From the NCBI RefSeq assembly GCF_031458235.1, contig NZ_JAVDYB010000001.1, positions 7,713,001-7,777,000 on the forward strand: a stretch of 64,000 bases of DNA. Direction: 5' to 3'. Below the pieces are notes generated by a model. The model made no database searches, was not told the origin of the DNA, and saw nothing but the letters and a program-made list of their open reading frames with translations. This stretch comes from Catenuloplanes atrovinosus (lineage in GTDB: Bacteria > Actinomycetota > Actinomycetes > Mycobacteriales > Micromonosporaceae). How positions within the stretch are numbered: position 1 is the first letter of the stretch; the number at the start of each line of letters is the position of its first letter. Both the position numbers and the translations under genes were made by a program. This document shows positions 3,981-27,559 of this stretch, one piece after another.

Positions 3981-4275
3981 CAGCCCAACCCAAGAACCGG
4001 AACGGGCCAACAGCCCAACGCAGGAACCGGCACGCCCGACAGCCCAACGCAAGAACCCGGAACGGACCAACAGCCCAACGCAGGAACCGGCACGCCCGAC
4101 AGCCCAACGCAGGAACCGGAACGGGCCAACAGCCCAACGCAGGAACCGGCACGCCCGACAGCCCAACGCAGGAACCGGAACGGGCCAACAGCCCAACGCA
4201 GGAACCGGCACGCCCGACAGCCCAACGCAAGAACCCGGAACGGGCCAACAGCCCAACGCAAGAAGCCGGAACGCG
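3981..4275. repeat. Tandem array of alternating 29/30-bp units
   Basis: About nine and a half units begin at 3981, 4011, 4040, 4071, 4100, 4130, 4159, 4189, 4218 and 4249. All units share CAGCCCAACGCAGGAACCGG. They then alternate strictly between two tails, AACGGGCCAA (30-31 bp units) and CACGCCCGA (29-bp units), so the higher-order period is about 59-60 bp. The array lies between the epimerase gene and tRNA-Leu, immediately beyond the double-hairpin element when read on the minus strand. It is open in some frames, but the encoded low-complexity peptides look like a by-product rather than a gene. Confidence 0.95.
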
Positions 4276-4340
4276 GGGCCCCCGGGGCTCGGCCCCGGGG
4301 CGGAATGACGAGAGGCCCCCGGTCCGCGCTTTCCGCGGAC
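4267..4340 (-). terminator. Double-hairpin element, copy A (after tRNA-Leu)
   Basis: Read on the minus strand, a 7-bp stem GTCCGCG/CGCGGAC with loop GAAAG (4340-4322) starts 21 nt after the tRNA-Leu 3' end. It is embedded in an outer stem AGGCCCC/GGGGCCT (4349-4313). After a 21-nt spacer comes a 9-bp stem CCCCGGGGC/GCCCCGGGG with triloop CGA (4300-4280), then CCCCGCGTTCC. The same layout recurs at 17484 and 27487. The position implies transcription termination or 3' processing of the tRNA, but there is no U-tract. Confidence 0.75.
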
Positions 4341-4361
4341 ACAGGGGCCTCAGGACTCTCG

Positions 4362-4444
4362 TGGGGAAGGGGGGAGTTGAACCCCCACGCCCTTTCGGGC
4401 ACACGGACCTGAACCGTGCGCGTCTGCCATTCCGCCACTTCCCC
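4362..4444 (-). tRNA. tRNA-Leu(CAG)
   Basis: An 83-nt class II tRNA. The acceptor arms GGGGAAG and CTTCCCC pair, the discriminator base is A (4362), the anticodon loop is TTCAGGT (anticodon CAG), and a long variable arm built on GCCC-GAAA-GGGC precedes the T-arm GGGGGTTCAACTCCCCC. The CCA end is not encoded. Confidence 0.95.
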
Positions 4445-17196: not shown

Positions 17197-17463
17197 GTGC
17201 CTAAGTCCCAGGTCCGCAAGAAGAAGGTCTACACCCCGCCCGCCGACCTCGGCCCGGCGAAGACCGGTGCGGCGGCTGGCAAGCCCAGCCCGGTGTGGGT
17301 GCCGGCGCTCGCCTGCGTGCTGCTCGTCGCCGGCATCGCCTGGCTGGTCCTCTACTACCTGTCCAGCCAGCAGTACCCGGTGGGTTCCTGGGGGTACTGG
17401 AACCTCGCCGTCGGCTTCGGCTCCATGGTCGCCTCGCTGATTGTTTTCACCCGCTGGCGGTGA
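17197..17463 (+). CDS. crgA: Cell-division protein CrgA
   Basis: An 88-residue small membrane protein of the CrgA/DUF3040-like division-inhibitor family. A basic N-terminus (MPKSQVRKKKVYTPP) is followed by two transmembrane helices (about 32-53 and 66-85) separated by SSQQYPVGSWGYWN. CrgA recruits or stabilises divisome components and links FtsZ-ring assembly to FtsI/PBP localisation in mycobacteria and Streptomyces. The GTG start at 17197 has AGGAG 8 nt upstream. Gene order with DUF881, the amidotransferase gene and pknB is the classical actinobacterial arrangement. The stop codon is part of the outer stem of the double-hairpin element that follows. Confidence 0.95.
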   Translation: MPKSQVRKKKVYTPPADLGPAKTGAAAGKPSPVWVPALACVLLVAGIAWLVLYYLSSQQYPVGSWGYWNLAVGFGSMVASLIVFTRWR

Positions 17464-17483
17464 CGTCCGCTTGGGTGGAGTCT

Positions 17484-17562
17484 GTCCGCGGAGAGCGCGG
17501 ACCGGGGGCGCGGACGTCAGATGCTGACCCCGGGGGGCGACCCCCCGGACCCCCACGTTCCT
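17484..17562 (+). terminator. Double-hairpin element, copy B (after crgA)
   Basis: Stem GTCCGCG/CGCGGAC with loop GAGAG (17484-17502) starts 20 nt after crgA. It is enclosed by a perfect outer stem TGACGTCCGC/GCGGACGTCA (17461-17470 with 17510-17519) that includes the crgA stop codon. A second stem CCGGGGGG/CCCCCCGG with triloop CGA follows (17530-17548), then CCCCCACGTTCC. The layout is the same as at 4267-4340 and 27487-27559. Probably a terminator or RNA 3'-end element for crgA. Confidence 0.75.
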
Positions 17563-17564
17563 GT

Positions 17565-17865
17565 GGTGCGGTCGGTGGTCAGCTCACGTTGACACCCTGC
17601 CTGGTGCGGTTGGTGGTCAGCTCACGTTGACACCCTGCCTGGTGCGGTTGGTGGTCAGCTCACGTTGACACCCCGCCTGGTGCGGTGCGCGGACAACGCA
17701 CGTTGCCGCCCGGCCTGGTGCGGTGCGTGGACCACGCACGTTGACCCCCGGCCTGGTGTGGTGTGTGGTCGGCGTGCGTTGACGCCCGGCCTGGTGTGGT
17801 GTGGTGCGGTTGGCGTGGGTTAACGCTCTGCCTGGTGGGGTGTTGGGCACTTCGGGTGATCCCGA
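17565..17865. repeat. Degenerate 38-bp tandem repeat array
   Basis: Eight units start at 17565, 17603, 17641, 17679, 17717, 17755, 17793 and 17834. Spacing is exactly 38 bp for the first seven and 41 bp for the last. The unit begins GGTGCGGTTGGTGGTCAGC and continues TCACGTTGACACCCTGCCT. The first three are almost identical and later ones diverge progressively away from crgA. The array directly abuts the double-hairpin element and ends about 140 bp before the Fe-S protein gene. No convincing coding capacity was seen in it. Confidence 0.93.
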
Positions 17866-24785: not shown

Positions 24786-24931
24786 CGGACAGTTGCATAA
24801 CGTACCGCGACGGCGTTTGTACGTACCGATTTTTGAGGTAGATCGGCTTGCGGCGTCCGTTTTGCCTCTCTAATCTTGGGGATCGCCAGGCTCGACGACG
24901 CGCGATCACCCCCGGTCGCCGCGAGCCTGAC

Positions 24932-25088
24932 ACCGCCGAATCATTCACTCGGATGAACCGGGGACCCAAGGCGCACTTGGGGTGAATCCGTCGGCCACCC
25001 ACCGACGGTAGGGCGATGACCCTGTGGTGAGCGCTTCTGCACCGGCCTCACCCGCCCGAACCCGTCAGCTAACCCGGTAGGCGGTCAG
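24932..25088 (+). promoter_or_regulatory. c-di-AMP (ydaO/yuaA) riboswitch
   Basis: The leader of the second NlpC/P60 gene contains the conserved blocks of this riboswitch in the right order: CCGCCGAATC, GAACCGGGGACCCAAGG, CTTGGGGTGAATCCGTC, then CCCGAACCCGTCAGCTAACC and GGTAGGCGG. This class binds cyclic di-AMP and in actinobacteria typically controls wall-hydrolase and resuscitation genes, usually turning expression off when ligand is bound. The aptamer ends about 24 nt before the start codon, so control could act on translation. Confidence 0.9.
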
Positions 25089-25111
25089 GGACACGAGGGA
25101 GCAAGACTTCG

Positions 25112-27400: not shown

Positions 27401-27471
27401 GCGGGTGTAGTTCAATGGCAGAACATCAGCTTCCCAAGCTGACAGTGCGGGTTCGATTCCCGTCACCCGCT
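27401..27471 (+). tRNA. tRNA-Gly(CCC)
   Basis: A 71-nt tRNA. Acceptor arms GCGGGTG/CACCCGC pair, the discriminator is T, the anticodon stem TCAGC/GCTGA holds loop TTCCCAA (anticodon CCC), and the T-arm reads CGGGTTCGATTCCCG. CCA is not encoded. An integrase remnant and a decayed accessory region follow, consistent with use as an integration site. Confidence 0.95.
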
Positions 27472-27486
27472 CGTCGTCGGAGCCCT

Positions 27487-27559
27487 GCTCGCGGAGTGCG
27501 CGAGCCGGGGCCTTCTCGCATTCTGCTCCGGGGCCGAGCCCCGGAAACCCCACGTCCCG
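27487..27559 (+). terminator. Double-hairpin element, copy C (after tRNA-Gly)
   Basis: Stem GCTCGCG/CGCGAGC with loop GAGTG (27487-27505) starts 15 nt after the tRNA. Short outer GCCC/GGGC pairing surrounds it. After a 21-nt spacer, stem TCCGGGGC/GCCCCGGA with triloop CGA follows (27527-27545), then CCCCACGTCCC. Relative to copies A and B, both stems carry paired substitutions that preserve pairing. No tandem array follows this copy. Confidence 0.72.

Follow-up and report, generated by a model that had tools for sequence, protein, structure and literature searches.

Hairpin 1, a long bulged hairpin found behind a tRNA-Leu gene, crgA and a tRNA-Gly gene, belongs to a genuine family of RNA hairpins located at the 3' ends of stable RNAs. 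It is probably an actinobacterial intrinsic terminator, serving mainly genes for stable RNAs (tRNA, tmRNA) along with a small number of protein genes, likely crgA and, in relatives, rpsA-like and IF-2-like genes. The kind of system, a terminator, is known, and the variant is most likely new. Of the two roles that the initial annotation had offered, terminator or 3'-processing element, the terminator is the best reading, a candidate drawn from sequence and position. The three copies (A, B and C) lie in the window, the whole stretch of DNA of 64,000 nucleotides, which has a GC content of 71%.

Architecture of the three copies in the window

Structurally, hairpin 1 is a single long bulged hairpin, consisting of a variable bulged outer arm, C-rich/G-rich pairs, a U.C mismatch, a 7-bp apical stem and a GANNG loop. 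In all three copies it is followed by a spacer, by hairpin 2 with a CGA triloop, and by CCCC(A/G)CG (Table 1). Sites, stems, loops and flanks read exactly as the initial annotation had described them: the apical stem is GTCCGCG/CGCGGAC in copies A and B and GCTCGCG/CGCGAGC in copy C, the loops are GAAAG, GAGAG and GAGTG, respectively, with CCGGGG behind, and the CGA triloop of the second hairpin is followed in each copy by CCCC(A/G)CGT(T/C)CC. The element had also been placed 15-21 nt after its gene, which holds for the start of the apical stem only, as the hairpin in its full length begins at the gene end or close to it. By its folds and positions, hairpin 1 is a stable GC-rich RNA hairpin at a gene 3' end, as a terminator should be.

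The outer stems proposed around hairpin 1 differ in clarity between the copies. Single-sequence folds agree on the apical parts, and the outer pairing is clear in copy B, weak in copy C and partly directed to the spacer in copy A. The outer stem of copy B is TGACGTCCGC/GCGGACGTCA, the first letters of which are the crgA stop codon; it does not form in a 75-nt fold that cuts through hairpin 2. The limits of the weak outer arm of copy C were set by eye. Copy A features CCCC/GGGG below the apical stem and an outer arm, CGAGAG/CTCTCG, that is a reading by eye; in the lowest-energy fold, part of its 5' arm pairs with the spacer and not with CTCTCG.

Table 1 Gene ends and hairpins of the three copies, with positions in the window.
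Feature	Positions	Strand	Details
tRNA-Leu(CAG), followed by copy A	4361..4444	-	ARAGORN limits; Rfam end 4362
Copy A, hairpin 1	4309..4361	-	behind tRNA-Leu(CAG); covariance model E 5.0e-12
Copy A, spacer between hairpins	4301..4308	-	TCATTCCG
Copy A, hairpin 2	4280..4300	-	CGA triloop, then CCCCGCGTTCC
crgA (cell division protein CrgA), followed by copy B	17197..17463	+	PF06781, E 3.2e-28
Copy B, hairpin 1	17461..17519	+	E 1.3e-11; apical GTCCGCG-GAGAG-CGCGGAC
Copy B, hairpin 2	17530..17548	+	CCGGGGGG-CGA-CCCCCCGG, then ACCCCCACGTTCC
tRNA-Gly(CCC), followed by copy C	27401..27472	+	ARAGORN
Copy C, hairpin 1	27473..27519	+	behind tRNA-Gly(CCC); E 1.1e-11
Copy C, hairpin 2	27527..27545	+	TCCGGGGC-CGA-GCCCCGGA, then AACCCCACGTCCC

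Short GC-rich tandem repeats lie directly 3' of hairpin 2 in copy A (~4260-4150, minus strand) and copy B (17560-17690, plus strand), and similar repeats stand behind a tRNA-Ala(CGC) copy (L009). The window also contains a c-di-AMP (ydaO/yuaA) riboswitch at 24924-25097 on the plus strand (Rfam, 79 bits).

When the window was searched with Rfam 15 at gathering scores, one riboswitch and two tRNAs were returned, none of them over the element; at seven loci searched at E ≤ 1, only tRNA, tmRNA and related models matched, over the RNA genes. A named family is thereby ruled out for Rfam 15, in agreement with the initial annotation, which had recognised none. A literature search found no paper describing such an element, and none is described in the available sections of PMC8355165, PMC5765039, PMC12207403, PMC12288462, PMC8269248 and PMC2864571.

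Copies in this and related genomes

A covariance model (R1) was built from an alignment (A2) of 82 copies from this and other genomes. The rows of the alignment were picked by pattern and by the presence of hairpin 2, so that loop, inner stem and second hairpin are biased in it, and the model inherits this bias. By eye, 14 of 75 stretches, which had no matching second hairpin or outer stem, were set aside as chance matches. A total of 187 copies were extracted, of which 167 are unique.

The search for further copies by covariance model, which the initial annotation had suggested, returned 17 copies in this 8.9-Mb genome. Nine lie directly behind tRNA genes (Asn, Ala, Ala, Met, Met, Lys, Leu, Gly, Gly), one at the crgA stop codon, and seven behind end fragments of tRNA or tmRNA, two of the seven scoring low (46 and 36 bits). 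The fragment copies comprise three behind degenerate short tmRNA-end matches, arranged in tandem with a 138-bp step, three behind tRNA-Gly fragments and one behind a tRNA-Ala fragment. Read by eye, the three-copy 138-bp array also presents open codons on the other strand, like the tail of a gene.

At E ≤ 1e-4, with stricter filters and 14 (phylum), 26 (family) and 20 (order) candidates scored per genome, which leaves absences soft, the model matched 45 of 160 Micromonosporaceae genomes and 34 of 200 genomes of the order (2 from the same family, 23 from a single other family and 9 spread over four more families), and in the phylum sample this genome alone (1 of 296; none of the 295 others). Thirteen genomes chosen for having matches and scored more fully contain 7 to 26 matches each (E ≤ 0.001). 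The exact core together with a second hairpin occurs within the family in Actinoplanes, Paractinoplanes, Catenuloplanes, Couchioplanes, Asanoa and Spirilliplanes, among others, and outside it in Herbihabitans, Actinokineospora, Actinophytocola, Actinocrispum, Actinomadura and Rhodococcus, among others.

We give next to no credence to a chance resemblance among GC-rich hairpins, even with the high GC content of the window and a hairpin-2 pattern that, taken alone and with mismatches allowed, is not in excess there (3 matches against 2.3 expected, and 4 against 3.5), its matches at A, B and C being exact. The hairpin-1 core pattern has three exact matches in the window and seven with at most three mismatches, a count that is reached in none of 100 shuffled windows (mean 1.5); across the whole genome, with at most one mismatch, it has nine matches against none for a reversed control pattern. 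Together with the 295 matchless genomes of the phylum sample, these controls led us to reject chance similarity.

The position at gene 3' ends, claimed initially for the three copies, is seen across genera. A tRNA or tmRNA called by ARAGORN ends 21-29 nt before the loop in 120 of the 167 unique copies, covering 15 amino-acid kinds in addition to tmRNA. Inspected by eye, the other 47 copies include some cut or missed tRNA or tmRNA genes and some degenerate tmRNA ends, the rest being protein genes or unplaced. Protein-gene neighbours among these 47 are crgA (twice), an rpsA-like gene, with S1 domains in the one tested and the same protein end at others, and two protein ends which we take, from their appearance, to be IF-2. 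A search for RNA families at eight copy loci with no obvious neighbour found nothing. When comparing the best matches of other genomes, an RNA gene was called directly in front at 38 of 47 placed loci; for seven of these genomes, the loci are the better-scoring matches among those listed. Placing of neighbours covered 64 of 65 loci (L252 left out), and 59 of 60 fetched loci are listed (L312 left out). Near-identical pairs of tRNA-Met plus element were observed in inverted orientation at L278/L279 (G002), L296/L297 (G004) and L298/L299 (G032), 0.9, 1.4 and 9 kb apart. Within the genus, crgA is followed by the element in all five genomes, one copy being degenerate and one having no clear hairpin 2.

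Selection on pairing and the separate character of hairpin 2

In the 82-row alignment, 93.6% of the cells are paired, compared to 85.8% in shuffles, where conserved columns keep the value high, and 26-54% when one arm is slid. Cells with a double change number 134, against 47 in shuffles, and the covariation term of RNAalifold is small (-1.2 of -28.6 kcal/mol). As the shuffles leave relatedness in place, we compared orthologous sites among five congeners. Ten such sites, with 2-5 species each, provide 110 pairs, of which 18 are compensatory, 10 tolerated one-sided, 9 broken and 73 invariant. With the partner slid by 1-3 bases, 0-3 compensatory pairs are left and 21-56% of the cells are paired, compared to 94.5% unslid. 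The tRNA-Ala(TGC) site entered one count with four sequences and the other with five, and the number of compensatory pairs is 18 either way. The outer stem at crgA differs among four congeners with pairing still possible, as read by eye. These observations support the view that the pairing of hairpin 1 has been kept by selection.

A strand signal is confined to part of the hairpin. Among wobble cells, pairs 9-12 contain 93 G-U and 3 A-C, a range that was chosen after looking and in copies that are related to one another. The apical pairs 1-7 exhibit no bias (5 G-U, 5 A-C), and pair 13 is reversed (5 G-U, 12 A-C). The bias in pairs 9-12 supports, and does not prove, the view that the sense RNA is under selection; C-to-T mutation linked to transcription could contribute to the G-U excess. 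Of the selection on RNA structure that the initial annotation had read from both stems, the part concerning hairpin 1 is borne out by the compensatory changes at orthologous sites, with a sense-RNA signature in pairs 9-12 and none in pairs 1-7, while hairpin 2 has no signature at the RNA level.

In hairpin 2, the eight inner pairs contain 11 G-U and 8 A-C wobbles; at the next two positions down the stem, where pairing fades, 5 G-U stand against 81 A-C. Conserved letters continue beyond it. The two hairpins also occur apart: at crgA, G004 has hairpin 1 and no clear hairpin 2, and G001 has hairpin 2 next to a hairpin 1 that is degenerate. A hairpin-2 pattern has 27 matches in the genome, 13 of which fall outside the model's copies, in or near tandem arrays of ~86 bp. 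Such arrays, of the GGGGCCGAGCCCCGGACCCCACGGTC type and with no hairpin 1, lie near protein genes at C1:988400-988764, 2600796, 3601885, 6855610 and 8745800 of this genome. As the hairpins separate and hairpin 2 forms arrays elsewhere, we take it to be a repeat frequently situated right behind terminators. Rather than the one double-hairpin RNA first described, the element probably comprises two modules, of which hairpin 2 with its ACCCC tail looks like a separable, DNA-level palindromic repeat just past the release point.

Possible roles in termination, maturation and mobility

Because hairpin 1 begins at or beside the mature 3' end, it would form immediately once its 3' arm has emerged from RNA polymerase. 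On the short U-rich stretch that follows the hairpin (for example TCGCATTTCTG), the enzyme would pause and then be released. The hairpin left on the precursor may shield it against 3' exonucleases until cleavage at the tRNA end removes the trailer, and hairpin 2 would serve at most as a back-up past the release point. We infer all of these steps, namely termination, pausing, protection and trailer cutting, from the DNA sequence.

The sequence behind hairpin 1 is enriched in U to a modest degree. The 9 nt before hairpin 2 contain 44% T, compared to 21-23% in the flanks (166 copies), and the 10 nt after the folded hairpin base contain a mean of 3.0 T, with at least 3 T in 67 of 117 folds and fewer in 50. 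A strict terminator scan (5 T in 8) found no terminator at copy A. In 50 of the 117 folds the 5' arm pairs into the spacer, bringing the hairpin to within 3 nt of hairpin 2. An automatic best-hairpin scan behind tRNA genes often selected a fold other than hairpin 1, and its T means (2.7 with the element, 2.1 without) were therefore set aside. For intrinsic terminators of Streptomyces, the available text of PMC12207403 reports 3-4 U among the first 10 nt, a weak U content to which that of the spacer is near. The accessible part of a review describes U-poor, I-shaped terminators as typical of mycobacteria, and the same review cites work titled as mycobacterial polymerase requiring a U-tract (PMC12288462).

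Compared to the canonical L-shaped rho-independent terminator, the element is alike in having a GC-rich hairpin at a gene 3' end followed by U-enriched sequence; it differs in its weak U content, in the long bulged arm that starts from the mature RNA end, and in loop, mismatch and stem bases that are common to unrelated genes. The mycobacterial I-shaped terminators and the HS-U-rich and HS-U-lack classes of Streptomyces clavuligerus likewise combine a strong hairpin with few or no U in GC-rich actinobacteria; as presented in the available sections of PMC12288462 and PMC8269248, however, these classes rest on shape, energy and U count and have no shared sequence-structure motif as their basis, and none is tied to tRNA or tmRNA genes. 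The hairpin clusters of Gupta and Pal 2021 (PMC8355165, available sections) resemble the element in having two neighbouring hairpins downstream of a gene and no need of a U-tract, whereas here letters are conserved in both hairpins, the second of which looks like a separable module at the DNA level.

Several observations count against the terminator reading, among them the lack of a true U-tract, the limits of the G-U bias and the small covariation term given above. A plain terminator needs no common loop, apical pairs or conserved mismatch, and the conserved GANNG loop and U.C mismatch exceed such needs. Moreover, only nine of the 60 tRNA matches in this genome carry the element, and it is missing from all 25 crgA loci compared from outside the genus. 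Many other tRNA genes of this genome are followed by ordinary hairpins with T-tracts, as seen by eye. Several of these T-tract hairpins have an apical GCG-GAAA-CGC-like tetraloop in common, which resembles the element's GCG-GAAAG-CGC pentaloop; the two may share an origin.

Conserved features of this kind are what would be expected if hairpin 1 were chiefly a 3'-maturation or protection element, its U.C mismatch and GANNG loop being read by a factor such as an RNase, a Nus factor or another RNA-binding protein, with termination secondary or brought about by Rho further on. We regard this as possible, yet rather unlikely. Support comes from 84 model-found copies outside the first pattern, in which the GANNG loop recurs in 69 and the U.C mismatch in 47, counts in which the bias of the model persists. 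In addition, the loop is GAAAG or GAGAG in 114 of the 167 unique copies, in 71 of 117 folds pairing sets in at the final base of the RNA gene or one base later, and a strong U-tract is absent by the strict scan. Nevertheless, we know of no factor that reads hairpin 1, the crgA copies show this hairpin behind a protein gene, where there is no tRNA to be matured, and the spacer is U-enriched, as a terminator would predict. A broader proposal, which we hold only tentatively and with somewhat greater doubt, is that hairpin 1 is dedicated to the 3' ends of stable RNAs, that a trans-acting factor recognises its U.C mismatch and GANNG loop and couples release to 3' maturation of tRNA or tmRNA, and that some integrative elements entering tRNA genes carry a copy, as at one tRNA-Gly here, and keep the invaded gene terminated.

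Mobility offers two further explanations. The initial annotation had named as its alternative a REP-like mobile palindrome, here one inserting beside terminators and tRNA genes. REP/BIME-type repeats are short palindromes that form tandem arrays, and hairpin 2 is alike: with its CCCCACG tail it occurs in arrays near protein genes independently of hairpin 1, it lacks a G-U bias, and conserved letters run on past it. A dispersed palindrome in arrays, as expected of a REP/RAYT system, was thus found for hairpin 2 only. A search of this genome for a Y1 (IS200/IS605-like) transposase (PF01797) returned no match, a difference from such repeats, while five of 14 control genomes were positive in the same search. 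Furthermore, hairpin 1 stands at orthologous gene ends in congeners, the five crgA loci included, with compensatory change. The missing Y1 match and the orthologous sites led us to reject a REP/RAYT origin of hairpin 1, and we consider the explanation improbable for the element as a whole.

Still less probable, in our estimate, is that the element belongs to the attachment site at which integrative elements enter tRNA and tmRNA 3' ends. Two loci of this genome invite the idea. At C1:6152200-6173200, a pSAM2-like integrative element (integrase, RepSA, FtsK) sits in a tRNA-Gly gene and starts just behind the gene and its copy of hairpin 1; 18-20 kb on, a 2-kb stretch contains three more 3' fragments of tRNA-Gly, every one of them with the hairpin element behind it. 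As these fragments with their elements lie beyond the pSAM2-like element, both of its sides carry a copy. At C1:6614500-6626000, an island behind the tmRNA gene contains a large serine recombinase and an FtsK gene, and ~9 kb separate the tmRNA gene from the three-copy array. An attachment site would not, however, be expected to keep RNA pairing, 120 of the 167 copies lie behind complete tRNA or tmRNA genes while others follow crgA or other protein genes, and the intact tmRNA gene of this genome has no model match behind it. In relatives, for example G001 and G002, tmRNA does have the element behind it. Integration would nonetheless explain the copies that are not behind intact genes and offer a route for spread: we read the seven copies behind RNA-gene fragments as integration scars.

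Returning to hairpin 1 as a putative terminator, its significance lies in what is conserved. Terminators are normally recognised by their shape; here, loop, mismatch and stem bases are largely kept behind many different tRNA genes, behind tmRNA and behind a handful of protein genes, for the most part in two families. The element could be used as a 3'-end marker in genome annotation. As a whole, the 167 unique copies constitute a natural variant set for how GC-rich actinobacteria end stable-RNA transcripts without strong U-tracts, which also bears on the help of factors and on the fate of a tRNA terminator after invasion by an integrative element.
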